Shown here: positions 5,086-40,561 of the stretch, in pieces
Position numbering within the stretch: the stretch's first letter is position 1
Layout of the letters: every line of letters begins with the position of its first letter
DNA from: a virus
Length of the DNA: 40,632 bases
Direction: 5' to 3' (one strand)
Virus record (IMG/VR): IMGVR_UViG_3300005095_000152
Span: 1-40,632 of that record
Notes under the pieces: generated by a model
Told to the model about the DNA's origin: nothing
Seen by the model: only the letters and a program-made list of their open reading frames with translations
Databases searched by the model: none
Program-made: the position numbers and the translations under genes

Positions 5086-5107
5086 AGTGTCTCCTTTCTG
5101 TTGTTAT

Positions 5108-5136
5108 ATTATAATTATATCCTAATTAACCTTAAA
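5108..5136 (-). promoter_or_regulatory. Promoter of the xre-to-nrdA operon
   Basis: Read on the minus strand: TTTAAG (5136-5131), 11 nt, TATAAT (5119-5114), followed by a second TATAAT one base later. The xre start lies about 28 bp downstream. If the second TATAAT is the true -10, then TTTAAG sits 17 nt upstream, at a normal -35 distance. The same arrangement occurs at most operon heads in this genome. Confidence 0.8.
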
Positions 5137-5178
5137 GATAGGTTAAATTAGACGAAATTCAATTTTAAGCGATTGAAT

Positions 5179-5208
5179 GATTAACTCGAGTATTTCATCG
5201 AGTTAATC
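5179..5208. promoter_or_regulatory. 30-bp perfect palindrome, copy B
   Basis: GATTAACTCGA (5179-5189) and TCGAGTTAATC (5198-5208) are perfect inverse complements around an 8-nt centre. It lies about 55 nt past the dpdA stop and about 43 nt upstream of the xre promoter. Conserved in copy A with one wobble-compatible change. It is either a transcript 3' hairpin or an operator. Confidence 0.68.
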
Positions 5209-5261
5209 TTTAAAACGGTAATTTACCGTGTTTTCGCCTCTTAGAATCTGGATGTATTGAG

Positions 5262-6386: not shown

Positions 6387-7112
6387 TTATCTTCCTTGTT
6401 CGTCGTTGTAAATTCTAATATGCTGTCTGTCTGAGTATTTAAAACCAAGACGCATACACTCCTCAAAAACCATTCTACTTGTCTGCTCAAGCTGAGCTGA
6501 TGTCTCACCTAACGGCATTAAGTATACATCTGCATAGTACGGTACCTCCTTCAATAGTTCTGAAGCCTCTGCTACATCATCCTCAGAGCCGCATACAAAC
6601 TTAAAGAAGCTATCATCTGTATAGCTAAGTATGTTATTGATAGCTCCAAGGTTGATTCTCTTATGCTCAGGCTCTCCGCTACAAGTAAGTTTTACGCTCA
6701 TAGCAAAGCTAACTCTTTTATAGATAGGCAACCTATCAAAGTCTATTACTTGCGTAGCATTTGTTTCGAACTGAACTTTGTGCCCTCTTGTAGCATAATA
6801 AGTTACAAACAAAGCAAGCTGCTCTACATATAGTGTAGGCTCTCCTCCGGTAACTATTACCATAGGCTTGTCCAGACTTGCTGGATACTTAGGCATCTTC
6901 TCGTTTACCTGCTCTATTAGCTCCTCAACGCTATAAGTCTTCCATTTGCGCCTAAAGCTCTTAGCATCTACGCTGAAGTAAGAATCACAGCCATTAGGTC
7001 CAAAGCCTGGACAAGTTAAGTTACATCCCCCTACTCTGACAAACACAGCAGGGAAGCCGGCATACTTACCTTCTCCCTGCAGTGTGTAGAATATCTCGCT
7101 GATAGGTACCAT
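6387..7112 (-). CDS. queE: 7-carboxy-7-deazaguanine synthase (radical SAM)
   Basis: QueE converts 6-carboxy-tetrahydropterin to 7-carboxy-7-deazaguanine with S-adenosylmethionine and a [4Fe-4S] cluster. The N-terminus has S-E-I-F-Y-T-L-Q-G-E-G, the substrate/SAM signature. The cluster cysteines are C30-x3-C34-x7-C42, followed by a D-S pair. T-G-G-E-P-T is the SAM-binding GGE motif. The spacing differs from the radical-SAM standard CX3CX2C. It resembles campylobacterial QueE, where GCNL-x-C is followed by an insert and then GCDS. Length 241 aa. Its start overlaps the queD stop (TAATG). Confidence 0.93.
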   Translation of the reverse strand: MVPISEIFYTLQGEGKYAGFPAVFVRVGGCNLTCPGFGPNGCDSYFSVDAKSFRRKWKTYSVEELIEQVNEKMPKYPASLDKPMVIVTGGEPTLYVEQLALFVTYYATRGHKVQFETNATQVIDFDRLPIYKRVSFAMSVKLTCSGEPEHKRINLGAINNILSYTDDSFFKFVCGSEDDVAEASELLKEVPYYADVYLMPLGETSAQLEQTSRMVFEECMRLGFKYSDRQHIRIYNDEQGR

Positions 7113-7648
7113 TACTTAGCTCCCATATAGATAGATTGAGACTTAGGAGTTTCATTGAAGATAACACTACTAACTTTGACTCCAAGTCCTGCCATCTTCT
7201 TAGAAGCTATATCATAGAACCAGCGAGCTATCTCCTCCGAAGTAGGGACGAAGTCTACTACTACGAATGACTCTCTTAGCTCATTACCAATCGGGTCATT
7301 GTCCAGTAGAGGAACTATCTTAAACTTAGCTCCTTCATACTCCATATCAATCAACTCTGACTTAGGCGTATTGGTAATCTGCTCAAATAGAGGGTCGTTA
7401 ATGTCGATGATAAATTTATGGTCAATCACCGTATCGATGAACTGCTTGAACCAGTTAAGGTGCTTAAAGTCTGTCACCATACTGCTGTCGTCAAGTGTTT
7501 CACCTTCCAGCTCAATCTTGACACTCATACGATGACCGTGCAGGTGTCTACATACCAAGCAGTTATCTATGCTATACTCTGCATTTAGTTTCTGCGCATG
7601 TACTCTATGACCGTAGTCACACTCGAATTGTTTACTTATTCTCCACAT
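7112..7648 (-). CDS. queD: 6-carboxy-5,6,7,8-tetrahydropterin synthase
   Basis: QueD turns dihydroneopterin triphosphate, the FolE product, into 6-carboxy-tetrahydropterin. The active site is visible: G-H14-R-V-H17, then C33-x3-H37-G-H39, the classic CxxxHGH motif with catalytic Cys and zinc histidines, then T-D-F-K-H, D-H-K-F, P-T-S-E-E and a late glutamate in F-N-E-T. At 178 aa it is longer than the usual 120-140 aa, with an insertion around residues 95-130. It overlaps the end of the DUF5664-PRTase gene by 17 nt and is followed by queE. Confidence 0.93.
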   Translation of the reverse strand: MWRISKQFECDYGHRVHAQKLNAEYSIDNCLVCRHLHGHRMSVKIELEGETLDDSSMVTDFKHLNWFKQFIDTVIDHKFIIDINDPLFEQITNTPKSELIDMEYEGAKFKIVPLLDNDPIGNELRESFVVVDFVPTSEEIARWFYDIASKKMAGLGVKVSSVIFNETPKSQSIYMGAK

Positions 7649-8369
7649 CTTGAACCTCCCAGTAAAATGTTATATAATCATCTGTCATAATCTCTCTTGC
7701 CGCTCTTACATCAAAGTTTTTAGTGTCTGCATTGTATCTCTTGAACAGAGACAGAATAGGATACTGCACAGTAGCTGGCATATACTTTCTGAGTGTGTTA
7801 CCAGTATCTACGATATCATCCACAATAAATCTTTGTGTAATACCGTGCACATCAACAAGGTAATCTTGACCAATAGCTACTATATCTACTCGCTTAACAC
7901 CTTGAATAGTTAAAGCTTCTGCAAGTTTATCTGCTACATACTTGCCGCTTGCAGGGATGTAATGTAGAACCACTCTATCGAAGCTATAAGTTCTAATATG
8001 AGCAGCAAGCTTGCTACATAGTTTATTTACCTCATCCTCAGATACAAATACGTCTGACGACTTAGCTATATCTGCACCTGCATAGTGCTTATTCTTCTTA
8101 TCAAGTGCAAGCAGAAAACCTAAGTTCGTAGCTGCATGCGCAAGGTGAGGTAGACCAGACTCAGGGTCAAAATACTCACCTTTTCTATACGCTTCAAGAT
8201 GTCGCATAGCTGCACCTACGAATCTACCATAATCCTCTTCTTTAGCTTTACGCCAAGCATTGGGAGCATATTTATTAGCTCCAAATGTCAATACTCTACC
8301 TACCTCTTCAATCAGTTCAGTAGGTATAAGCTCAAGTCTGTTTTTGTACTTATCGTTCTTTAGTTCCAT
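7632..8369 (-). CDS. DUF5664 (MazG/MazZ-like dNTP pyrophosphohydrolase) fused to a phosphoribosyltransferase
   Basis: The ATG at 8369 follows AAGGAT and lies one base after the previous stop. A longer reading frame upstream would overlap the preceding gene. Of 245 aa, residues 8-90 match the DUF5664 pattern: R-L-E-L-I-P, F-G-A-N-K-Y-A-P-N-A-W-R, R-H-L-E-A-Y and L-P-H-L-A-H-A-A-T-N-L. This family is related to MazG and to the dATP/dGTP pyrophosphohydrolase MazZ. Residues 125-200 look like a type I phosphoribosyltransferase with the PRPP loop F-I-V-D-D-I-V-D-T-G-N-T (181-192). It sits directly before queD, so a role in purine or deazapurine nucleotide pools is suggested. Substrates are unknown. 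Confidence 0.8.
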   Translation of the reverse strand: MELKNDKYKNRLELIPTELIEEVGRVLTFGANKYAPNAWRKAKEEDYGRFVGAAMRHLEAYRKGEYFDPESGLPHLAHAATNLGFLLALDKKNKHYAGADIAKSSDVFVSEDEVNKLCSKLAAHIRTYSFDRVVLHYIPASGKYVADKLAEALTIQGVKRVDIVAIGQDYLVDVHGITQRFIVDDIVDTGNTLRKYMPATVQYPILSLFKRYNADTKNFDVRAAREIMTDDYITFYWEVQDVENK

Positions 8370-8370
8370 A

Positions 8371-9189
8371 TTACAATCCTTGTACGAATGGGCATTTGCT
8401 GTAGTAGCCACACCAGTCTTTACTACATAAAAAGTATGCATACTTATTAGTTCCTCTGAACAACGCTGGGTCTCCTGTCTCGTAGAACTTCTCTGTCACA
8501 TCAAGAATCTGGTTGATTACATTCTTAGCATAGTCAATCTTAGGAGCTAATGCAAGTCTCTCTACACCTTTACCTCTAATGACATTGTGAATCTCATTGA
8601 AGTTAGATACCTCACCATTCTGTTGTCTTAGCCAGGTATAAGTAGACTGCTGCAGTACATACTTATCTGGACTTGTTTTACGCTTCGTATGCTTAAGGTC
8701 TACTACTCCTCTATCCAAAACAATATCCAGCGTACCTGAGATATCCTCAAACACAGGGTGGTCAAGTTTAACTGTGTATCTCTTCTCTACATCAATAGGG
8801 TCAGTGATAGGCATCAAGTCTTCATAGTAGTCTTTCATACCTTTAATGAGGTCATTCTCATAAGTATAGTAATCTTCACCTTTGCCATACTCAAAGTCAT
8901 TCTCCTCATTTAGCTTCTTCCACTCCTCAGCTACTACATCAGTAAGAAAGCTTACCGGAGGTAGCTGACCGAGCTTAATCTTATCCTTATAGCCCATCTC
9001 TGCACCTTTATGCAAACTCGTACCAGCCACAGCAGCTGCTGCAGGTCTCTGAAAGTCCCCTCTGATTTGAGCTTGGTACCACTGAAATGGACATCCAAGA
9101 AACTGTTGAAGTGACGAAGGTCTAAGTCTTAGCTTGCCCTCATTCTTAATCTTATCTTTTAGCTCTTCTAAATCTACACCGTATAACAT
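8371..9189 (-). CDS. PD-(D/E)XK exonuclease of the RecB/Cas4 type with Fe-S cysteines
   Basis: The 272-aa protein fits the PDDEXK_1 superfamily: G-T-S-L-H-K-G near residue 55, then G-T-L-D-I-V-L-D and V-V-D-L-K-H (about 150-165) for metal binding and catalysis. C33 and the C-terminal C255, C260 and C266 are placed like the four cysteines that hold a [4Fe-4S] cluster in AddB and Cas4 nucleases. It probably works as a replication or recombination exonuclease. AAGGAG precedes its ATG, and its start overlaps the end of the upstream gene by one base. Confidence 0.87.
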   Translation of the reverse strand: MLYGVDLEELKDKIKNEGKLRLRPSSLQQFLGCPFQWYQAQIRGDFQRPAAAAVAGTSLHKGAEMGYKDKIKLGQLPPVSFLTDVVAEEWKKLNEENDFEYGKGEDYYTYENDLIKGMKDYYEDLMPITDPIDVEKRYTVKLDHPVFEDISGTLDIVLDRGVVDLKHTKRKTSPDKYVLQQSTYTWLRQQNGEVSNFNEIHNVIRGKGVERLALAPKIDYAKNVINQILDVTEKFYETGDPALFRGTNKYAYFLCSKDWCGYYSKCPFVQGL

Positions 9190-9641: not shown

Positions 9642-10209
9642 ACTTGTCCACCAATACTTGATATAGCTCTCTTGTAGCTTTAATGTCAGCAATAGCATCG
9701 TGAGCATTATCCCCAAGACTTACACCGAAGTAATCACACATCGTGCCAAGTTTATGATTCGGTGAGCTGATAAGCCCAAGAAAGCTGAGATGTTTAATAA
9801 GAGCAAACACATCAACATCTTTATACTGAAAATAGCTACCGAAGAACTTATGCCCATTATCAGCAAACCAAGCTCTCATAAATCCCATATCAAAGCCACT
9901 GTTATAGCCTACAGGGATGAACTTGTTCTCCTTATCATACTTGTTGATATACTTGTCAAGGAAGCTAATGAACTTATCGAACTGCTCCTGACTACTTGGA
10001 TAGTTCTTAAGCTCCTTAGTTGTCTTACCTGTCACATCTAAAGCCTCCTGGCTCACATCCACCTTACGCTTGTAGCTATAGGGATTAATATCCAGTGCGA
10101 TAGAGTCAACCTCTTCACCATCGATAACTACAATAGCTGCAAGCTGTGTTAGGCCTGCTTTGCTGCTGTCGAGTCCTGTTGTCTCGACGTCAAAATAAAA
10201 TGCCTTCAT
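9628..10209 (-). CDS. DnaQ-like DEDDh 3'-5' exonuclease
   Basis: The 193-aa protein carries all DEDDh motifs: D7-V-E9-T-T-G, Y-N-S-G-F-D107, and H170-D-A-I-A-D175. It resembles the epsilon proofreading subunit and RNase T-like nucleases. Its ATG follows the polA stop directly, sharing a base, so it is coupled to the polymerase gene. The polymerase has its own 3'-5' exonuclease-like domain, so this enzyme may act in recombination, primer removal or host DNA turnover rather than only in proofreading. Confidence 0.92.
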   Translation of the reverse strand: MKAFYFDVETTGLDSSKAGLTQLAAIVVIDGEEVDSIALDINPYSYKRKVDVSQEALDVTGKTTKELKNYPSSQEQFDKFISFLDKYINKYDKENKFIPVGYNSGFDMGFMRAWFADNGHKFFGSYFQYKDVDVFALIKHLSFLGLISSPNHKLGTMCDYFGVSLGDNAHDAIADIKATRELYQVLVDKYVKS

Positions 10210-11888
10210 TAGTTACTCACCTCATATTTATATATATACTCATCCTCGATACTGCCCCAGTTAAGTCCTGCTGTAACTGTTACCGGCATCGGGAGGTCTT
10301 TAATCTTCAAGCTTTTAGATAACTCAGTCCAGCCTTCCAGCATAGAGTCTCCAAGCATCTTACTTGCCACCTCAATCTTTTCAATCGGAGCTTCCCAAAT
10401 CATCGCATCATGGATGACGTTTAGAATCTTAATGTCTTTATGCTCCTCAAGCCTCTCCATAGCATAATGCAGAGCCAGCTTAGTAGCCTCAGCACCCGTA
10501 CCTTGGTTCTGGATATTGTTCAAGTCAGTGAAGATGTTAGCAGTATAGATACGACCCAGAGCTGTGCGAGCTGTTTTGTTCCCTCGTCTGTACTCTCGAA
10601 TGTTTCTCTCCTGCCAAGCTATAATTGTAGGATATAGCTTTCTCCACTTATTACGAATGAACTTAACCTCATCCATTGGCAGGTCTTTACCTGTCAGTGT
10701 AAGAATAATCTTGTGGAATGTGTTGACTCCTGCACCGTACAGCAATCCGAAGTTCGCTGTCTTAGCAATCTGTCTTTCGTCCTTGCTGACCTCGTCCATC
10801 AGTTTGTTATAGATAACACTCGCTGCATAGATATGCAAGTCTACATCCTCACGGAACATCTTCTCCATAACCCTCTCACCAAGCAAAGCACAAATTGAGC
10901 GAAGCTCCAACTGAGCGTAGTCACAGTAGATTAGTGCCTTACCTTCCTCTTCAGTATAACCGAATACCCATTTCAATGCTCGAGGTATCTGCTGAATGTT
11001 CTGCTCTGAACAGTTAAATCTACCTGAACGAGTAGCTACATTAAAGTGACCTCTTACTCTATTATCAGGCTGGTCGAACTTGTCTAAGAAGGTAAGTTGC
11101 TTTCTAAGCTTTCTCTGCAAGCGTACCCAGCCTGCTTCCTGCTGACCGTTAGCCTCCATCTGAGCCAGAGCTAAGTCGTCGCTTTCAGTAGAGTTTAGGT
11201 AAGCTCTAACCTGACGATAACTATTACAGTTAAAGCCTTCAGGCAGCTTAGCTGTTACCTCGGCCAGTCTGTTTGTAGTATCGATGTAGGCTTTAGCTAT
11301 CAACTTTTTATTAACAGGCATACCGTTGAACTGGAAGTCGAGCACATGGTTGATAGTTAGCTTGTCAAGCGTATAACTAAACTGCTCAGTTTCAGTCTCT
11401 ACCTCATACCATAAATCTGGAAGGTAATAAACATCAATAGCAGCGTATTTAAGCTGTTCATCTGTCAATTTGTCTTTTGACCAATTCGACTTCTGTAACT
11501 TCTTTTTATCGCCGATTTCAGCGTATATATCCCTTCTATAATGATGTTCAAGCATTGCATCAAGAGAGAATGTTTTAAGCCAATGAAACTTCAATCTACC
11601 TGCGAGGAATGTATCGTCCCAATTCTTAAAAGTAGCGAAGCTACCTAAGTCTTTTCTGAAGCAGGTTGCATCATACTGGAAGTTATGACACACAATGTGA
11701 GCATCCTTGATGTGCATATATATGTCAATCAAGTCTACCTCTCTTGTATCGAGGATAACTACCTTGTCCCATCCGTCTTGATATAGCTGAACTAATCTGA
11801 TGTTACTGAAGAATTTCTCTGTCTCCGTATCCATAAACAGAAACTTGTCGTTGTCGAGCTGTGGAAGCTCTGTAGTTAGTTTGTACAT
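10209..11888 (-). CDS. DNA polymerase, family A (T7/Pol I type)
   Basis: Replicative polymerase of 559 aa. An N-terminal 3'-5' exonuclease-like domain starts with M-D-T-E-T-E and includes C-H-N-x-x-Y-D. The polymerase domain has motif A D-Y-A-Q-L-E-L-R-S (about residue 320), motif B R-Q-I-A-K-T-A-N-F-G-L-L-Y-G and motif C V-I-H-D-A-M-I-W-E (about 490). In the O-helix the residue after N is F, the deoxy-selective type. AAAGGACAG lies before the ATG, and a hairpin separates it from the upstream gene. The gene is followed by the exonucleases and the deazaguanine genes in one transcription unit. Confidence 0.96.
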   Translation of the reverse strand: MYKLTTELPQLDNDKFLFMDTETEKFFSNIRLVQLYQDGWDKVVILDTREVDLIDIYMHIKDAHIVCHNFQYDATCFRKDLGSFATFKNWDDTFLAGRLKFHWLKTFSLDAMLEHHYRRDIYAEIGDKKKLQKSNWSKDKLTDEQLKYAAIDVYYLPDLWYEVETETEQFSYTLDKLTINHVLDFQFNGMPVNKKLIAKAYIDTTNRLAEVTAKLPEGFNCNSYRQVRAYLNSTESDDLALAQMEANGQQEAGWVRLQRKLRKQLTFLDKFDQPDNRVRGHFNVATRSGRFNCSEQNIQQIPRALKWVFGYTEEEGKALIYCDYAQLELRSICALLGERVMEKMFREDVDLHIYAASVIYNKLMDEVSKDERQIAKTANFGLLYGAGVNTFHKIILTLTGKDLPMDEVKFIRNKWRKLYPTIIAWQERNIREYRRGNKTARTALGRIYTANIFTDLNNIQNQGTGAEATKLALHYAMERLEEHKDIKILNVIHDAMIWEAPIEKIEVASKMLGDSMLEGWTELSKSLKIKDLPMPVTVTAGLNWGSIEDEYIYKYEVSN

Positions 11889-12546: not shown

Positions 12547-12568
12547 ATTATAACCTAATTAACTTAAA
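12547..12568 (-). promoter_or_regulatory. Promoter of the ssb-like/polA/queDE/dpdA operon, embedded in the end of thyX
   Basis: Minus strand: TTTAAG (12568-12563), 10 nt, TATAAT (12552-12547). The motif spans the last codons (about F-K-L-I-R-L-stop) of thyX, so coding and promoter functions share the same bases. The core TTAATTAGG between the two boxes is identical to that of the 5.1-kb and 40.5-kb promoters. Confidence 0.78.
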
Positions 12569-13225
12569 AAACTCCTTAAATAGATATTTATGCTCTGAAG
12601 GAAGCGCATTGTATACCTCCTGAGCAAGTAGCTGAATCTCCCACAGTGCGTCTTTATGACTTCTCAACATTAAGAAGTTTTGCAGACTGCGAGCATTGAT
12701 AGTCCATATCAAGCTTGTTCTGTAGCTCTCAGGCAAACTATACTTAGCTATATCGTTGCCTATATTTAGCTTGAGAAGCTGTCTAAGTTGCTCCAATGCC
12801 TTAATGTTTGTATTGTTAACATACGATGTCGTTGTCATAACTATGTATTTATAGGCTCGCTGATGGTCCGCTGGGATGTCTACATTGAACGGCTTCTCGT
12901 CTTTAAGCTCCTTGAGAGTATATCTCGTAGACTTGACAGTCAGCGAAGCTATTCTATGTCGTGCAAGCTCCTGTAGCAGAGCTCTACTTACTCCGTCAAT
13001 GTCGAAGCTATACACTAAGTGCTCAAGCACCGACTTGTGCTTCATCTTGTTGCCTATGCGAGCTATTAACTCTTTATCTCTGTCACCTGCCTCAGCTAGA
13101 GCATAAATGCCTTGCTCTCGTACAGCTTCGATGTCTGTATCTCTCTTAGCTTGAATATCTCTACTTTTGCGGATAGCCTCGCTGCATATCCATAGCGGTG
13201 TATGATGCAATAATTCTACTCTCAT
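12548..13225 (-). CDS. thyX: Flavin-dependent thymidylate synthase
   Basis: ThyX methylates dUMP to dTMP using methylenetetrahydrofolate, FAD and NADPH. The 225-aa protein has the signature R89-H90-R91-x-x-S94 continued by L-T-V-K-S-T-R-Y, plus E-H-L near residue 69 and a C-terminal R-S-L-Q-N-F segment for substrate binding. AAAGGAG lies before the ATG. It is the last gene of the primase operon and uses the dUMP produced by the dCMP deaminase and dUTPase encoded elsewhere in the genome. Confidence 0.95.
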   Translation of the reverse strand: MRVELLHHTPLWICSEAIRKSRDIQAKRDTDIEAVREQGIYALAEAGDRDKELIARIGNKMKHKSVLEHLVYSFDIDGVSRALLQELARHRIASLTVKSTRYTLKELKDEKPFNVDIPADHQRAYKYIVMTTTSYVNNTNIKALEQLRQLLKLNIGNDIAKYSLPESYRTSLIWTINARSLQNFLMLRSHKDALWEIQLLAQEVYNALPSEHKYLFKEFFKLIRL

Positions 13226-16115: not shown

Positions 16116-16276
16116 TCTTGCTTAATGTTCTATTTCCTCCTTATGTAACCACATATCGGACGAAATATAAAGCTTTGCTGATTTTCGATAAAGTCGCTGT
16201 TACAACAAGGTGCTTCCTTTACCTTATAATTATGCTGTAATTATAATATAAAATCCTAAGATTTTAGGTAGGCTTC

Positions 16277-16323
16277 AGACCGAGTTTTACAAGAAATAAA
16301 ATGCAACACTTTTAACACTTTTT
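16277..16323 (+). repeat. Inverted-repeat family element 1
   Basis: Plus-oriented copy: AGACCGA at its left, an A/T stretch, then TGCAAC-A-C and TTTTAACACTTTTT at its right. It pairs with element 2 through a 22-bp arm with one mismatch plus the outer AGACCGA block. The whole unit recurs at 18.54 kb. Confidence 0.85.
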
Positions 16324-16370
16324 TGCCTTATCTATCTCTTTTTTTTCTTATTTTTTTCTTCACATTATAT

Positions 16371-16418
16371 AAAAAGTGTTAAAAGCGTTGCAAATTTATT
16401 TTAGTTATACGTCGGTCT
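16371..16418 (-). repeat. Inverted-repeat family element 2
   Basis: Minus-oriented copy beginning AGACCGA (16418-16412 on the minus strand) and ending in TTTTAACACTTTTT. It begins 11 nt after the stop of the 16430 gene. With element 1 it could form a long cruciform or RNA stem with a 47-nt spacer. Confidence 0.85.
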
Positions 16419-16429
16419 AAAGCTATTAG

Positions 16430-16672
16430 TTATTGCAGCATAGCTTTGAGCAGCATAGCTTTGAGCAGCTTCACCTCCTCATTTAGTTTAGCGTCCGTCT
16501 TGAACTCATCGTCACTCAGGCTGCTGTACACTTCCATCCATTTCCATAGCTCGGCAGCATCACCTCTCACCATCCTCACCTCTGTAGTTATCAGCTTACT
16601 ATCCCAACTAATTCTACTACAGGTAAGTACATTATCCTCAAAAGTGAACATAGTTTTACCATTCTTTATCAT
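16430..16672 (-). CDS. Small hypothetical protein with duplicated C-terminal hexad
   Basis: The ATG at 16672 has GAGGAG six bases upstream, better than an upstream GTG at 16696. The 80-aa protein has a small beta region, W-K-W-M-E, and a helical C-terminus. The last residues repeat as L-L-K-A-M-L-L-K-A-M-L because a 15-bp unit (AGCATAGCTTTGAGC) is tandemly duplicated at 16437-16466. No family recognised. No TTTAAG-type promoter was found directly upstream. Confidence 0.62.
   Translation of the reverse strand: MIKNGKTMFTFEDNVLTCSRISWDSKLITTEVRMVRGDAAELWKWMEVYSSLSDDEFKTDAKLNEEVKLLKAMLLKAMLQ
16437..16466. repeat. 15-bp exact tandem duplication
   Basis: AGCATAGCTTTGAGC occurs twice in direct succession inside the 3' end of the small gene. 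It keeps the frame and adds five residues. A recent slippage event is the simplest explanation. Confidence 0.85.
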
Positions 16673-16797
16673 CAAATACTCCTCATTTAAAATCACGAAA
16701 CAGCATCAAATTCAGATAATCTAATGCTTGCACGATTAATTGCATTAAATCGCACATTAAAGTCAATAAGATATGGTTTCGTCGTTATTAACTTTAA

Positions 16798-16820
16798 TTT
16801 AAGATTTAATATATTATAAC
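16798..16820 (+). promoter_or_regulatory. Promoter-like motif pointing antisense to the 16875 gene
   Basis: TTTAAG (16798-16803), 11 nt, TATAAC (16815-16820) on the plus strand, matching the phage promoter geometry. Downstream on the plus strand there is no plus-strand gene before 20771, so it would give an antisense RNA. The region is very AT-rich and chance is possible. Confidence 0.35.
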
Positions 16821-16840
16821 TATATTATAATAGACTTACA

Positions 16841-16869
16841 AAGAAAAGACAGCCTCCGCAGAGGCCGCC
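16841..16869 (-). terminator. Rho-independent terminator of the 16875 gene
   Basis: On the minus strand, 5 nt past the stop: a 9-bp stem GGCGGCCTC / GAGGCTGTC (with two G-U pairs) around TGCG, followed by TTTTCTTT. It is the clearest intrinsic terminator in the window. Confidence 0.9.
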
Positions 16870-16874
16870 TTGGA

Positions 16875-17357
16875 TTAGTTGCCTGATAGCGCTTCAATCA
16901 ACTCTTCAGCTGTCTCGAAATACTCAGGTGCATCTTCGATATCTGTAATAGTTACCTTCTCATCTTTCATCTTTTCGAGTTCAGCAAGCGCTTCTTTCCA
17001 CTCAGCGACTGTAATCTCTTCATTTTGCAGCTGCTCATCAAGTTCAGCCTTCTTGTTAACAATCTCTGTTCTCTTCTTACGACCGATAGACTCAGCAAGT
17101 TTACATTGATATGCATAATTCTCACCACGCTTACCGAACTCTTCGATTGGCATATATACACCGAAGTATGAACATCTCTTACCGATAACATTACCGTCAG
17201 CATCTTTCACAAGTGTAGAACCTGCAGTTGTACCTTTACCTTTACCTTCGAATAGTGCGATTACATCTTTCACATCTACCTGACCTTCTTTACCGAAAGC
17301 CGACTCAATCATCTCTCTAACCTTAGTTTTGCTCAATGCATATGTTTTAGTTGCCAT
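16875..17357 (-). CDS. Hypothetical protein, monocistronic, probably abundant
   Basis: 160-aa protein. The N-terminus has A-L-S-K-T-K-V-R-E-M-I-E-S-A-F-G and a V-K-D-V-I-A-L-F helix pair. A G-K-G-K-G-T-T-A-G linker and a G-K-R-C-S-Y-F-G-V-Y strand region follow, then a long charged helix (about 95-140, coiled-coil-like). The tail is acidic. TAAGGAG precedes the ATG, a hairpin sits in its leader, and a strong terminator follows, so the gene is a self-contained unit. Clean expression signals suggest high expression, for example of a DNA-binding or host-takeover protein. No family recognised. Confidence 0.8.
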   Translation of the reverse strand: MATKTYALSKTKVREMIESAFGKEGQVDVKDVIALFEGKGKGTTAGSTLVKDADGNVIGKRCSYFGVYMPIEEFGKRGENYAYQCKLAESIGRKKRTEIVNKKAELDEQLQNEEITVAEWKEALAELEKMKDEKVTITDIEDAPEYFETAEELIEALSGN

Positions 17358-17388
17358 AATTTACTCCTTAAGTAATGAATTTTGTTAA

Positions 17389-17411
17389 ACAGTTGGCGAC
17401 TGTTTAATCAA
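17389..17411 (-). promoter_or_regulatory. Leader hairpin upstream of the 16875 gene
   Basis: Perfect 9-bp inverted repeat TTAAACAGT / ACTGTTTAA around a 5-nt centre, about 20 nt upstream of the SD. It has no T-run on the minus strand. It could stabilise the transcript or serve as an operator. Confidence 0.6.
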
Positions 17412-17455
17412 ACTCATTAAGATGATATCAACCGCTCTTTGACGATTGATACCAT

Positions 17456-17478
17456 AGTATCCTCTACCTTTCCTTAAA
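17456..17478 (-). promoter_or_regulatory. Candidate promoter of the 16875 gene
   Basis: Minus strand: TTTAAG (17478-17473), 11 nt, GATACT (17461-17456). The -10 matches TATAAT at four of six positions. It overlaps the stop of the upstream small gene. Weaker than the other members of the set. Confidence 0.45.
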
Positions 17479-17686
17479 CCTTTGTTAAACTAAGACCGAT
17501 TTTGAAAGTTTCTGGATAATCTATATCGAACAGATTAATGTTCTCTACTTCACTACATAGTTCGAGTATTTCACCTACAGTTACATCCTCAGCATACACA
17601 GTGACAGAATCTTCATTTAGTTCCATCTCCCATTCATAGTTATCCGCTAAGTATTCAGCAAGTGTGTTAATATCCATCATCAACAT
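17474..17686 (-). CDS. Small acidic hypothetical protein
   Basis: 70 aa, strongly acidic (N-Y-E-W-E-M-E-L-N-E-D, then E-I-L-E-L-C-S-E-V-E-N). AAAGGATG lies upstream of the ATG, and it has its own promoter of the phage type. Small acidic proteins expressed early often bind host enzymes or mimic DNA. That is only a possibility here. Confidence 0.68.
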   Translation of the reverse strand: MLMMDINTLAEYLADNYEWEMELNEDSVTVYAEDVTVGEILELCSEVENINLFDIDYPETFKIGLSLTKV

Positions 17687-17716
17687 TGTTCATCCTTTAT
17701 GTTTAGTTATAAGAGT

Positions 17717-17739
17717 ATTATACTCTATAGAAGGTTAAA
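17717..17739 (-). promoter_or_regulatory. Promoter of the 17474 gene
   Basis: Minus strand: TTTAAC (17739-17734), 11 nt, TATAAT (17722-17717), with a perfect -10. It overlaps nothing but the very end of the spacer between two small genes. Confidence 0.65.
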
Positions 17740-17745
17740 CTTTAG

Positions 17746-17958
17746 TTAACCCTCTAAGAATATAACCTTCTCTATCTCATATGTCGCATAGTCTAAGATT
17801 AGTTCTTCGAACTCTTCGAAGTCTTCTGCTGACATTATAATATGAGTCTGGTCTCTAATGATATATACTCCAGTAGGTAGTATAGTATTCATCGCCTCTA
17901 TATCGCTAATATATAAGAGATATAATCTTTCATCTCTTTCTTTCGTCTTAGTCTTCAT
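17746..17958 (-). CDS. Small acidic hypothetical protein
   Basis: 70 aa with a basic N-terminus (M-K-T-K-T-K-E-R-D-E-R), a middle strand region and an acidic helix (S-A-E-D-F-E-E-F-E-E-L-I). AGAAAGGAGAACAAA precedes the ATG, an excellent SD, and the phage-type promoter lies about 30 bp upstream. No family recognised. It and the next gene look like separately transcribed early genes. Confidence 0.72.
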   Translation of the reverse strand: MKTKTKERDERLYLLYISDIEAMNTILPTGVYIIRDQTHIIMSAEDFEEFEELILDYATYEIEKVIFLEG

Positions 17959-17987
17959 TTTGTTCTCCTTTCTTTTCTTATACGACC

Positions 17988-18010
17988 ATTATAATATAAC
18001 AATGCTTAAA
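17988..18010 (-). promoter_or_regulatory. Promoter of the 17746 gene
   Basis: Minus strand: TTTAAG (18010-18005), 11 nt, TATAAT (17993-17988). Confidence 0.72.
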
Positions 18011-18156
18011 TTCTTCTTAAATTAGAACAAAATTTTCATTTTCTTTCAAACCCTTATATTAATGAAAATAAATAGCCAAACTTTCCTTACAAACAGGTTA
18101 ATCTAATGTTAAAGTTTTCTTAATATCGAACTACTATGAATAAGTAAACTATTCGA

Positions 18157-18195
18157 ACTTACATTAGGAAAGTCAATCTAATTGACTTACATTAG
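18157..18195. repeat. Direct repeats with 28-bp period around a perfect palindrome
   Basis: ACTTACATTAG occurs at 18157-18167 and 18185-18195. Between them lies AAGTCAAT-CTA-ATTGACTT (18170-18188), a perfect 8-bp inverted repeat whose right arm runs into the second direct repeat. Confidence 0.8.
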
Positions 18196-18227
18196 AACGG
18201 TAAAATTTGGTTATCGAAGCCCGGTAG

Positions 18228-18271
18228 GTTAAGTTTATTGACTGTTGGAGTGTAAGTTAAGTTTATTTACT
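18228..18271. repeat. Second 28-bp-period direct repeat
   Basis: GTTAAGTTTATT-n-ACT occurs at 18228-18243 and 18256-18271, with the same 28-bp period as the pair just upstream. Confidence 0.75.
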
Positions 18272-18372
18272 TTACTGTGTTGGTGTTGGGGTTGGTTGTG
18301 TTGTTTGATGGTGGAGGGAGTCCGCGGCGCCCTTGATGGCCCATATACCTATATATAACAAACCCGAAAATT

Positions 18373-18445
18373 TGACGTGTCTACACAGCACCTAAATTTG
18401 ACGTAGCTACGCAGCACCTAAAGCTGACGTGTTTACACAAGAGCA
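18373..18445. repeat. Three 26-bp iterons with co-varying internal dyads
   Basis: Units start at 18373, 18399 and 18425, each beginning TGACGT. The core dyads are GTGT-CT-ACAC, GTAGCTAC (extended to CGTAGCTACG) and GTGT-TT-ACAC. When one half changes from GTGT to GTAG, the other changes from ACAC to CTAC, so symmetry is kept. Units 1 and 2 share CAGCACCTAAA after the dyad. These look like binding sites for a dimeric protein or small hairpins. Confidence 0.88.
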
Positions 18446-18542
18446 GACTTTAAACTAACTAAGAGAACCACAGGCAGGGCCCTTTCCACGCACCCTATAT
18501 CTAAAGCGTAAACTAAATAAAAAAATTTTTCGTATTCCGAGT

Positions 18543-18589
18543 AGACCGACATTTAGCTAAATTAAATTTGCAACGCTTTTAACACTTTT
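18543..18589 (+). repeat. Inverted-repeat family element 3
   Basis: Plus-oriented copy: AGACCGAC, GCTAAA, TAAATTTGCAACG, then TTTTAACACTTTT. It is closer to element 2 than to element 1. It pairs with element 4 across about 43 nt. Confidence 0.85.
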
Positions 18590-18630
18590 AAGGTAATCTA
18601 TAGGAAAACTAAGAAAATTATAGAAGGCCC

Positions 18631-18668
18631 AAAAAAGTGTTAAATAACTTAATTTTGTTAAAGGTCTA
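18631..18668 (-). repeat. Inverted-repeat family element 4 (shorter)
   Basis: Minus-oriented copy: TAGACC, AAAATTAA, then TTTAACACTTTTTT. The middle part is shortened, and its TAGACC block overlaps the last codons of terL. Same arrangement as element 2 behind the 16430 gene. Confidence 0.65.
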
Positions 18669-20184
18669 ACCCGTTCTTAGGCTTCGGTAGCGAGGAAGAC
18701 TTGATAAGAGGGCTATCAGAGGTAGTGTCAACAACATCAGTAAGTGAAGCATACCTAATAGCATCAGCCATATGAGAATACTGATTATGAAGAGGCTTAT
18801 CTTTCCAAACTCCACGCTTCTCATCCCATTCCTTAGTATAGTTATCCAGTGCATCTATTACCTCTGTACATCCTGCATCTATCCAAGTATTAGTTAGCAT
18901 TTGTCGAACATGTTCAATACCATCCAGTATAGGTACGTTACGAACAATTCTAATGTTGACTCCTAGAGACCTAAATATAGCTCGCCTACTTTTACCTGAG
19001 CCTAACTCCCTCACTTTAAGATCATGAGGGCCATAAACGTGACTATAATCGTAGGTTTTGCTACGCATAATATTTACATAGTGAGCTATAGGTTCACCGT
19101 TATTCACATATTCATCTACTATACGTACTTCACCTCTAAATACTTGGTAAAATACCATGGTAAAGTCATCGTTCATACCTAAATCCATAGCTACGTGAAC
19201 TTTGAGGTTAGGGTCATAGAGATTCTCTACAATGCGTCCAAGCTTGCGTATGCGACGCATCTGGTTAGCATAATAAGTACCATCTCGAGCAGCCTGGAAT
19301 GCCTCTTCGGGTGTGGAAGGGTACTCTTGAGTAATATCGTCACCAAGCTCTCTATACTTAGCTACATAGAAGTACTTCTGTTCTTTATCGAGCGTAATAC
19401 TGAGCTCATCTTCTACTTTGGTAAAGTATTCAGCAAGTTTGTTAGGAATAAGCTGCCTCTCTTCGAGCCTACAATCAGGGTCCTCAGTCCAAGAGATGAA
19501 GATAGGTGCAAAGTCAAGTTCGGAAAATGGACCTTGATGATTCTCGGCTACTTTCCACATTTCATAGAATAGGCCTGACTTACCTTCAGCAGTACTCTCA
19601 ATAGTTACTCTACGCTTACCACCGATGGCTTGAAGAGTACCAGTTTTGAGCTCTTTAGCTTTGTCAGGAAACTTAGCTGCGATTTTACCGAGCTCTGAGA
19701 TATGCAAGTTCTGCAGAGTACCGGAACGGAACGACGTACGAATCATTAGCTTCGAGTTGTTACTAAAGGCATACTCTTTGGAGTTATCTGTAATTAGCTT
19801 AATGCTGAGGAATTCTTTAATCTTAGGGTCCAAGTTATCCCACGCTACTCTACACTTCTCTAATAGCTCAGCTGCTTCATCAAGACCCTGAGCCATGACA
19901 CCGTTGGTTAAGTTCTCATTAAATATAGCTTCGTCGAGGTTATATAATAGGTGATATGTAGAGATACCGACCTGACGAGACTTTAGAATAATTTTACGGT
20001 TGTGCTTTACCTCCGCTACCTTTTTCTGTAGTGGGTTCATTCTAAATAGTACCAGGTCACCTTGTTTATTGATAACCTTGTACAGGTTATTCATTCTCCA
20101 GAGTTTGGAACCAAGGAGCTGAATGAATTCTTCATCTGTAGCAGGTACAGCATCAATGATTGACCAGTCTATGTTAGATTTCAT
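18658..20184 (-). CDS. terL: Terminase large subunit
   Basis: Packaging motor ATPase and nuclease of 508 aa. The N-terminal ATPase has the adenine-binding N-P-L-Q-K region, a Walker A of terminase type I-L-K-S69-R-Q-V-G-I-S-T and a Walker B region near L-H-I-S-E-L. The C-terminal RNase H-like nuclease starts at V-A-M-D-L-G-M-N-D (about residue 332). It overlaps terS by 11 nt. It is on the opposite strand from all other virion genes and is transcribed away from them, which is unusual for podoviruses. Confidence 0.93.
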   Translation of the reverse strand: MKSNIDWSIIDAVPATDEEFIQLLGSKLWRMNNLYKVINKQGDLVLFRMNPLQKKVAEVKHNRKIILKSRQVGISTYHLLYNLDEAIFNENLTNGVMAQGLDEAAELLEKCRVAWDNLDPKIKEFLSIKLITDNSKEYAFSNNSKLMIRTSFRSGTLQNLHISELGKIAAKFPDKAKELKTGTLQAIGGKRRVTIESTAEGKSGLFYEMWKVAENHQGPFSELDFAPIFISWTEDPDCRLEERQLIPNKLAEYFTKVEDELSITLDKEQKYFYVAKYRELGDDITQEYPSTPEEAFQAARDGTYYANQMRRIRKLGRIVENLYDPNLKVHVAMDLGMNDDFTMVFYQVFRGEVRIVDEYVNNGEPIAHYVNIMRSKTYDYSHVYGPHDLKVRELGSGKSRRAIFRSLGVNIRIVRNVPILDGIEHVRQMLTNTWIDAGCTEVIDALDNYTKEWDEKRGVWKDKPLHNQYSHMADAIRYASLTDVVDTTSDSPLIKSSSLPKPKNGLDL

Positions 20185-23008: not shown

Positions 23009-24085
23009 TTGAGCAGAATTGCAGACATACTCCTAAGAGCTAGAGATTCTCTATCAGACCCAAAAGGCCAAAGATGGTCAGACGATAGACTCTTAAGACT
23101 TTTAGATGAGGCACAGAAAGATATAGTTAGAAGAGCGAAGCTACTTAGAGCTAAGACTGTTATATATGTTATTGAAGGGCAAAATACATATAAACTACCC
23201 GAAGATTTACTTCAGCTAACCAGGGTACTGGTAGATGATAGAAAAGTGGACTTAACCAACCATGAGGATTTGGATGAGCGAAACCCTATATGGGAGGTTG
23301 AGGAAGGTGAGATTATAAATGTTGTCATAGATAGACGTAATCGGCATATCCTCAAAACATACAAGATTCCAGTGTATGTAGAAAAGCTAGCTGTGTACGA
23401 ATTTAAAAATGCAGGCTATTTAGAGGATATCACATATCAACCCGATAGCGATTTTGGTATCTTGGTCGATGGTGAGGAAGGAGATAGTTTTACTTCTACT
23501 TGTCCACTAGACCCTACATGCGGTGTAACTTCTGACGGTAAATTGGTTGTTAATGTATATGATGAGGATGGCAATTATATAGGTCAAATTGAGTACGATT
23601 TCGAGCTTGATAGCGATTACGGAGTAGTAGGCGCAATTACTGACCTTTCTAAGGATGTATTAGTTAGAGATAGCACCTATGGGTTTGTATCTGACTTGAC
23701 TGATTTTGAATTTTCTTCTGATTATGGTGTAGTTGTAAGCTTTCAGGATGATGATATAGATGTGGAGAATATGAATTCAGACTTGGGAGAGATTACCGAT
23801 ATTACTGAGTCTGACACTAAACTAATTGTGTATTATACTAAGAAACCTTCTACCATTAAAAGTCTAGATGATGAACTTGAGATAGATAGTTCCTTCGATA
23901 CAGCGTTAAAATATTATATAGTGGGTAAAGCTTTGCGTGATGATATGGATACTATGAATAGGCAAGTTGGTAATGAGGAGCTTCAATTCTACATGAGGGA
24001 ATTAAATGAAGCCATTAAAGATGATATGCATGATTTTGTGCGTGCAGGTAAAAATTATGAAGTAAAATACAGAGGAGGATTGTAA
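23009..24085 (+). CDS. Head-to-tail adaptor with internal repeat insertion
   Basis: The TTG start has AAAGGAG six bases upstream; no better ATG is seen. The 358-aa N-terminus (I-L-L-R-A-R-D-S-L-S-D, R-W-S-D-D-R-L-L-R-L-L-D-E-A-Q) matches the pattern of phage connector/adaptor proteins (DUF6682-like). The C-terminus (D-T-A-L-K-Y-Y-I-V-G-K-A-L-R) is of the same type. Between residues 145 and 266 a module with a repeated D-S-D-Y-G-x-V signature occurs about five times, which looks like inserted short beta repeats exposed on the neck. Confidence 0.78.
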   Translation: MSRIADILLRARDSLSDPKGQRWSDDRLLRLLDEAQKDIVRRAKLLRAKTVIYVIEGQNTYKLPEDLLQLTRVLVDDRKVDLTNHEDLDERNPIWEVEEGEIINVVIDRRNRHILKTYKIPVYVEKLAVYEFKNAGYLEDITYQPDSDFGILVDGEEGDSFTSTCPLDPTCGVTSDGKLVVNVYDEDGNYIGQIEYDFELDSDYGVVGAITDLSKDVLVRDSTYGFVSDLTDFEFSSDYGVVVSFQDDDIDVENMNSDLGEITDITESDTKLIVYYTKKPSTIKSLDDELEIDSSFDTALKYYIVGKALRDDMDTMNRQVGNEELQFYMRELNEAIKDDMHDFVRAGKNYEVKYRGGL

Positions 24086-39390: not shown

Positions 39391-40050
39391 TTACACCTCC
39401 GTAGTAAACATACAATCTTGGTTTTTTACGCCTCTATACATCTCACAGCTGTGAGCAGCTTCAATAGTTACCTGAACGTGATCATCAGGTACATCGGCAG
39501 CCTCTTTGATAATTCTATGCAGCTGAACAGTGAGGTCCTCTTGCAAGTGGAATCTATTACCTATATAGTTAGCTAACCTCTGAAGCTTGCTGATACCTAA
39601 TACAAAGTCGTTAGGTTTATACTTGATGACAGCCTTACCTACAAAAGGTAGAAAGTGATGACTGCAGGTAGAGATAATTCTAACCTCTTTAGTAATCCAG
39701 TTGCTCCCATTGTTATTAGGGAATTTAGGTAATCGTACAGGCTTACTGAATCTACCACCACCAAGCTCTGTATCGCAAGCTAAGCTATCGCCACACCACA
39801 CTTTAGCTATTCGCTTAGGTGTCTCTGCTGTGTTATCATCTTCCTTGATGAGCATCAGAGCGAATGCCTCTTTTAGCTTCTGCTCAACTAACCATCTCAT
39901 AAGTCTATGAGCATCTTCGGTAATCTCCTGACCAGTCTCGAACACATTACCATCAGCTTTAAACGCTTTAAGCTCTTTATATTCAAAGTATGCCTTCTCT
40001 ACTCTTTCAAGTGACCATCCAAGGTCAGCTGCTGCTTTCTTATTGTTCAT
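39391..40050 (-). CDS. folE: GTP cyclohydrolase I
   Basis: Makes dihydroneopterin triphosphate from GTP, the first step toward 7-deazaguanine. The ATG at 40050 has GGAG six bases upstream, inside the end of the dUTPase-like gene. The 219-aa protein has the zinc triad C129-S-H131-H132 (C-S-H-H-F-L-P-F) and C202 (A-H-S-C-E-M-Y-R-G), and K-P-x-x-F-V-L-G-I-S-K-L-Q-R-L-A typical of FolE. Together with queD and queE it lets the phage make its own deazaguanine rather than rely on host precursor. Confidence 0.95.
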   Translation of the reverse strand: MNNKKAAADLGWSLERVEKAYFEYKELKAFKADGNVFETGQEITEDAHRLMRWLVEQKLKEAFALMLIKEDDNTAETPKRIAKVWCGDSLACDTELGGGRFSKPVRLPKFPNNNGSNWITKEVRIISTCSHHFLPFVGKAVIKYKPNDFVLGISKLQRLANYIGNRFHLQEDLTVQLHRIIKEAADVPDDHVQVTIEAAHSCEMYRGVKNQDCMFTTEV

Positions 40051-40510
40051 TGTAATCTCCTTCATATAGTTTGTATGTATCAGCTTGAGCAAGCATGAAC
40101 TGCCCTACTCTTGCACCTTTAGCTATCTTAGCTGCCCAAGGGGTAGTATTGAAAATAGTTCCGTTAACACCTCCTTTGTATCCTGCGTCATATAGAGCGC
40201 TCTGAACTATTACTCCGTTACGCTGAAGAGTTGAACGACCAATAATCCAGCCACACTCATTCTGAGCCATCTCTACTTTATGTACTGTATCAAACTGATA
40301 TAATGTACCAGGTAGCAGTACAAACGTACCATTTTCATCTGGATAGATTTCGTGCTTGTCTCTATGTACTTTACTATCCTCGTGAAGTTCAAACTCTCCA
40401 GTAAGTGCATATACTCTATCGATACGAATATCCACAGTATGCATCTGCACCATAGCCTCATCTACATTAGTTAGTTTAGTCTTGCCAGACATCTTAATAT
40501 GCTTAAACAT
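40040..40510 (-). CDS. dUTPase / dCTP deaminase family protein
   Basis: 156 aa of the trimeric dUTPase fold. Visible motifs are V-D-I-R-I-D-R near the N-terminus, G-R-S-T-L-Q-R-N-G-V (motif 2), A-L-Y-D-A-G-Y-K-G-G-V (motif 3 region) and G-A-R-V-G-Q-F-M-L (motif 4). It would make dUMP from dUTP, or dUTP from dCTP; the D-A-G-Y-K-G segment fits either, so substrate is open. GAAGGAGAAGCTT precedes the ATG. First gene of the folE-nrdB operon. Confidence 0.88.
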   Translation of the reverse strand: MFKHIKMSGKTKLTNVDEAMVQMHTVDIRIDRVYALTGEFELHEDSKVHRDKHEIYPDENGTFVLLPGTLYQFDTVHKVEMAQNECGWIIGRSTLQRNGVIVQSALYDAGYKGGVNGTIFNTTPWAAKIAKGARVGQFMLAQADTYKLYEGDYNEQ

Positions 40511-40538
40511 AAGCTTCTCCTTCTGTTGTTATATTATA

Positions 40539-40561
40539 ATTATAGCCTAATTAAACTTAAA
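40539..40561 (-). promoter_or_regulatory. Promoter of the dUTPase-folE-nrdB operon
   Basis: Minus strand: TTTAAG (40561-40556), 11 nt, TATAAT (40544-40539), followed directly by a second TATAAT (40538-40533). Part of repeat copy A, and nearly identical to the xre promoter. Confidence 0.8.

Follow-up and report, generated by a model that had tools for sequence, protein, structure and literature searches.

The window contains two inverted copies of one long inverted repeat of 127–143 bp, each with the potential to form a long hairpin and each located at the 3' end of a leftward gene, behind its stop codon. By window we mean the whole stretch of DNA analysed, a virus record of 40,632 bases, which is probably a circular map since its first 91 bases are identical to its last 91. 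A first-pass annotation had described four independent 48-bp units arranged as two inverted pairs. All four are present where they had been placed and the pairs are real; however, the first pair (16266–16430, read rightward) aligns with the second (18685–18526, read leftward) end to end and over the whole length. Hence, the four arms are one element present twice, in inverted orientation, and not four elements.

The element consists of two complementary arms, each roughly 48 nt, flanking a loop of 41–47 nt. Copy 1 (plus strand; about 16265–16430, core 16277–16419, outer stem to about 16272–16424) has the order A-loop-B, with arm A to the left (16277–16323, plus) and arm B to the right (16371–16419, minus); these arms contain a 22-nt seed region at 100% and match over 40 nt at 78%. 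Copy 2 (minus strand; about 18538–18672, core 18542–18668) has the order D-loop-C in the opposite orientation, with arm C (18542–18589, plus) as its right arm and the degenerate arm D (about 18631–18668, minus) as its left. The two right arms, B and C, are identical at 44 of 48 positions (92%), including 27 nt without change, and all four differences are confined to the A/T linker, while the loops of the two copies are identical at only about half of their positions. The sequence blocks that had been assigned to all four arms are complete in B and C and, with one change, in A, which resembles B and reads TGCAACA. Arm D lacks both the GA of AGACCGA and the entire TGCAACGC block.

Chance similarity in AT-rich DNA can be set aside almost entirely as an explanation, even with the region at about 66% A+T. 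TTTGCAACRCTTTTAACACTTTTT with ≤3 mismatches occurs three times in the window compared to 0.00 times in shuffles. Furthermore, B/C is the best inverted repeat of the window with a score of 36, and shuffled sequences reached no more than 24 (30 shuffles of the whole window) or 26 (500 shuffles of the local 2.6 kb). Both comparisons refute the chance reading. The length of the shared segments relative to chance had been named beforehand as one deciding test for the claim, and alignment and shuffles place the repeats far above chance.

The window is a podovirus whose nearest annotated relatives, judged by major capsid protein and terminase, are Pseudoalteromonas phage PH1, Vibrio phage VPMS1, Edwardsiella phage KF-1 (Kafunavirus) and Dickeya phage Amaethon, in all of which terS-terL reads towards a noncoding stretch that is followed by small early genes and then by primase/polymerase. 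The primase encoded in the window contains both a Prim-Pol and a DUF5906 domain. A pattern search of IMG/VR with the primase and g16875 proteins yielded no close relatives of the early region; weak matches were nonetheless seen in the loci fetched via terL and the capsid protein. Elsewhere in the window (6387–8441, 12548–13225 and 39391–40092) lie genes that encode QueD-like (6-pyruvoyl-tetrahydropterin-synthase family) and QueE-like (radical-SAM, with a score under the Pfam cut-off) proteins, as well as GTP cyclohydrolase I and ThyX. This set resembles a 7-deazaguanine route, which could mean that the phage DNA is modified.

Both copies are located at gene boundaries, and the proposal that the minus-strand arms begin at stop codons is borne out. 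Arm B begins 11 nt past the stop of g16430, a small leftward early ORF (16430–16696, minus) with no family match, while arm D overlaps the stop codon of terL (terminase large subunit; 18658–20184, minus; supported by PHROG terminase matches and tblastn to phage terL), its AGACC lying inside the final terL codons. As had been proposed, the small early genes and the possible origin region lie between the pairs. The starts of the next genes lie roughly 200 to 600 nt beyond the copies, and each copy precedes the upstream region of the next unit. Other boundaries on the same strand of the early region also carry strong hairpins: the gaps 16697–16874 (z −5.1), 17358–17473 (z −7.0) and 5086–5261 (z −4.4), with a classical intrinsic terminator (16846–16871, minus) behind ORF g16875, at a boundary between the two copies. 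One relative (L006) has inverted repeats (10179–10219, 10420–10450 and 10922–10954) unrelated in sequence to the element but alike in layout, starting 21 and 3 nt past the stops of two small early ORFs.

Further repeats were noted in the same DNA. The gap with z −7.0 holds a near-perfect 47-nt palindrome (17373–17419) just upstream of the ribosome-binding site of g16875, and an exact 15-bp tandem duplication (16435–16464) near the 3' end of g16430 adjoins arm B and is translated as LLKAM LLKAM. Two highly similar intergenic cassettes of ~175 bp are located at 5086–5261 and, across the joined ends, at 40511–40541 plus 1–150. Each separates the 3' end of one leftward unit from the next unit's start, with a TATAATTATAATATAAC stretch and a Shine-Dalgarno-like site at its end. 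Boundary cassettes have therefore been duplicated more than once here, and it appears that a hairpin cassette has been duplicated by this phage at boundaries between transcription units.

The proposed ability of the pairs to form cruciforms or hairpins is supported by folding. The transcribed strand of both copies is the minus strand, for which the minimum free energy is −50.8 kcal/mol for copy 1 (z −8.5) and −34.7 kcal/mol for copy 2 (z −3.8); the plus-strand folds are slightly weaker. On the minus strand, copy 1 forms a long, near-continuous inner stem, while the inner stem of copy 2 runs for about 12 continuous pairs and is joined by additional helices. In both copies the stem extends outward past AGACC, but the letters differ, being GCTTC/GCTTT for copy 1 and CGAG/CGGG for copy 2. 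This suggests that complementarity itself has been kept in that part, but the evidence is slight, coming from just two copies, and the D part lies within terL codons. No known structured RNA family (Rfam 15) matched the window at gathering score.

We tentatively favour, at slightly below an even chance, the reading that the element is an RNA boundary or processing hairpin. Leftward transcription through terL or g16430 would produce an RNA that folds into the hairpin, which would then act at the transcription-unit boundary. Most likely, RNase III would cleave the double strand or 3' decay would be blocked, possibly along with some slowing or ending of transcription, and as an outcome terL and the small early gene would be kept apart from the next unit. 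The anatomy alone is demonstrated, and from it we infer any step of cleavage, termination or binding. The reading is based on the far stronger pairing of the transcribed strand than in shuffles, on both copies beginning at the stops of leftward genes ahead of the next unit's upstream region, on outward stems that pair with different letters in each copy, on the strong hairpins (one a classical terminator) at other same-strand early boundaries, on the unrelated inverted repeats directly behind tiny early genes in L006, and on the slightly stronger minus-strand folds. The predicted fold, foremost the long inner stem of copy 1, matches the double-stranded RNA stem of about 20 bp or more expected of an RNase III site.

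Several observations speak against this RNA hairpin. D has lost its pairing with the TGCAACGC block of C, yet B and C are still 92% identical, a pattern more like sequence recognition than pairing alone. The bias of G-U over A-C pairs towards the transcribed strand is only slight, the case for kept pairing comes from two copies with no relative found to carry the element, and the gap 17959–18657 taken whole is not unusually structured (z 0.26). A T-run is absent directly behind either stem. The suggestion that the element is a plain intrinsic terminator found no support: at neither copy is a G+C-rich stem followed immediately by a T-run, the best candidates reaching −1.2 and −1.4 kcal/mol. The broader idea that terL always ends in a terminator was likewise rejected, just 8 of 49 relatives having one, compared to 4% in shuffles.

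A DNA-level function is a doubtful but serious alternative, in which AGACCGA-(18–19 nt A/T)-TGCAACGCTTTTAACACTTTT would bind a phage regulator or an initiator of replication; the sites would form inverted pairs, and copy 2 would lie next to the replication origin. Both blocks are unchanged in B and C, with a linker that varies in sequence but is near-constant in length, and the high B/C identity in spite of the decay of D is the best argument for DNA binding. In contrast, arms complementary over 48 nt and outward stem extensions are not needed for binding. Copy 2 is located in a noncoding stretch (17959–18657) at the plateau of the GC-skew minimum, beside three 26-bp iteron-like direct repeats (18368–18445). 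The stretch also holds the only TTTGGTTA of the window (18206–18213), with the same letters as the priming site of the NrS-1 PrimPol (PMC8718748), a single 8-mer being weak evidence. The third-position skew of terS-terL (−0.04, compared to +0.165 for the early and +0.219 for the late genes) would be in keeping with an origin to the left of terL and is suggestive only; GC skew was rejected as origin evidence, the signal being seen in the window and absent from five relatives. Relatives do retain a repeated DNA dyad in the same place behind terL, but this differs in sequence from the element and has no copy in the window. A distinct proposal, that the arms are promoter repeats each supplying a −35/UP region, is quite improbable. 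It draws on TTGCAA-18-TATAAT (16393–16364), located behind B on the minus strand with 10 of 12 matches, by which B would drive the primase unit; at the same distance behind C the sequence is GGTAAT, which would read antisense into terL, the region has no surplus of promoter matches (16 compared to 12.8 in shuffles), and the arms face each other.

It is also unlikely that the element is the relic of a miniature inverted-repeat transposable element (MITE), although its anatomy is that of a short noncoding element with terminal inverted repeats (127–143 bp, arms of about 48 nt), the repeats being long and the place intergenic as in Correia/NEMIS, ERIC and RUP (PMC2229807). TA is found at three of the four outer ends (TAGACC in B, C and D), which is weak evidence in AT-rich DNA; no target-site duplication beyond this TA was seen at the copies, the searches gave no relative near enough to reveal an empty site, and D overlaps terL codons. 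A mobile element had been among the first suggestions, but just two copies are present and no second genome carrying the element was found in IMG/VR, the GTDB species genomes, phages or plasmids, where all matches were consistent with chance. A dispersed multicopy family was not seen in these collections, a result that is provisional. The exact unit had a single IMG/VR match, within unrelated coding-like DNA, and AGACCGA-N18-26-GCAACRCTTTT was found in 17 IMG/VR contigs, all of which lack the TTTAACACTTTT block and an inverted partner close by, and was judged to reflect chance. One metagenome-assembled genome matched among the GTDB genomes, again without an inverted partner, and phages and plasmids gave no meaningful match. 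A MITE origin is compatible with either function, RNA hairpin or DNA binding.

A different repeated sequence, the AT dyad TWATAAATTTAWTA, occupies the position behind terL in the relatives, in one to four copies and often as direct repeats. Perfect TWATAAATTTAWTA occurs 36 times in 19.9 kb of post-terL DNA compared to 20 times in 758 kb elsewhere in the loci, an enrichment of about 70-fold; with duplicate loci removed, 35 remain in 47 post-terL regions compared to a mean of 0.16 in dinucleotide shuffles. Sites 0–600 nt behind terL include 23527–23656 in PH1 (L122) and 2190–2236 in KF-1 (L124), and the dyad is also carried by L123, L125, L126, L006, L060, L072, L083, L084, L093, L096 and others, with some phages having an extra copy near the terS/scaffold region. 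The dyad has no annotation in the relatives' records examined. It looks like a DNA site, because the flanks generally lack covariation: a covarying hairpin was rejected, as beyond ~8 nt from the centre the flanks overall show no more complementarity than shuffled columns. In the window, the TWATAAATTTAWTA core has no match with ≤1 mismatch, and B and C hold just the half-site AWTAAATTT. The element and the dyad of PH1/VPMS1/KF-1-type podoviruses are alike in being directly behind terL, repeated and dyad-symmetric. They differ in that the dyad is a short AT-rich palindrome, often in direct repeats, whose canonical form is absent from the window.

It is conceivable, but improbable, that copy 2 is the form taken in this phage by an as yet undescribed control site (an origin, a packaging start or an operator) kept behind terL by the PH1/VPMS1/KF-1 group, with copy 1 a second such site before the primase unit and one phage protein acting on both ends of the early cluster. 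The dyad itself is strongly conserved in many related podoviruses and offers a concrete target for mapping an origin, packaging start or late regulation; it may be a more interesting result than the hairpin element. In addition, a conserved noncoding motif, TGTACAA...TATTCGCATGCNCACG...TATAA, precedes the first early genes in PH1, VPMS1, KF-1, ctXG1253 and Amaethon (at about 23035 in L122, 1089 in L123, 2486 in L124, 3782 in L125 and 2829 in L126), and resembles an early promoter, or part of an origin, common to these phages.

T7-type RNase III processing hairpins lie between phage early genes, behind stop codons, and have stems of 20 bp or more. The element is similar in that it can form a long stem between transcription units behind stop codons, but it differs in its large 41–47-nt loop, in the presence of two sequence-sharing copies in opposite orientation and in that its cleavage is predicted. 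With intrinsic terminators, such as that behind g16875, it has in common a hairpin located where a unit ends, and it departs from them in lacking a T-run directly behind the stem and in a much longer stem and loop. Correia/NEMIS, ERIC and RUP, bacterial MITEs of about 100–155 bp, are intergenic and transcribed, with terminal inverted repeats, TA ends and long stem-loops, and NEMIS RNA is cut by RNase III (PMC2229807, PMC10969869). In contrast to these, the element is present as two copies in one phage, has no known relative, has longer arms (about 48 nt) and is only putatively mobile. It shares with them the size range, terminal inverted repeats, TA ends, intergenic place, probable transcription and long stem-loop fold, and it may work like the NEMIS/ERIC-type intergenic hairpins without necessarily being one of them (PMC2229807, PMC10969869).
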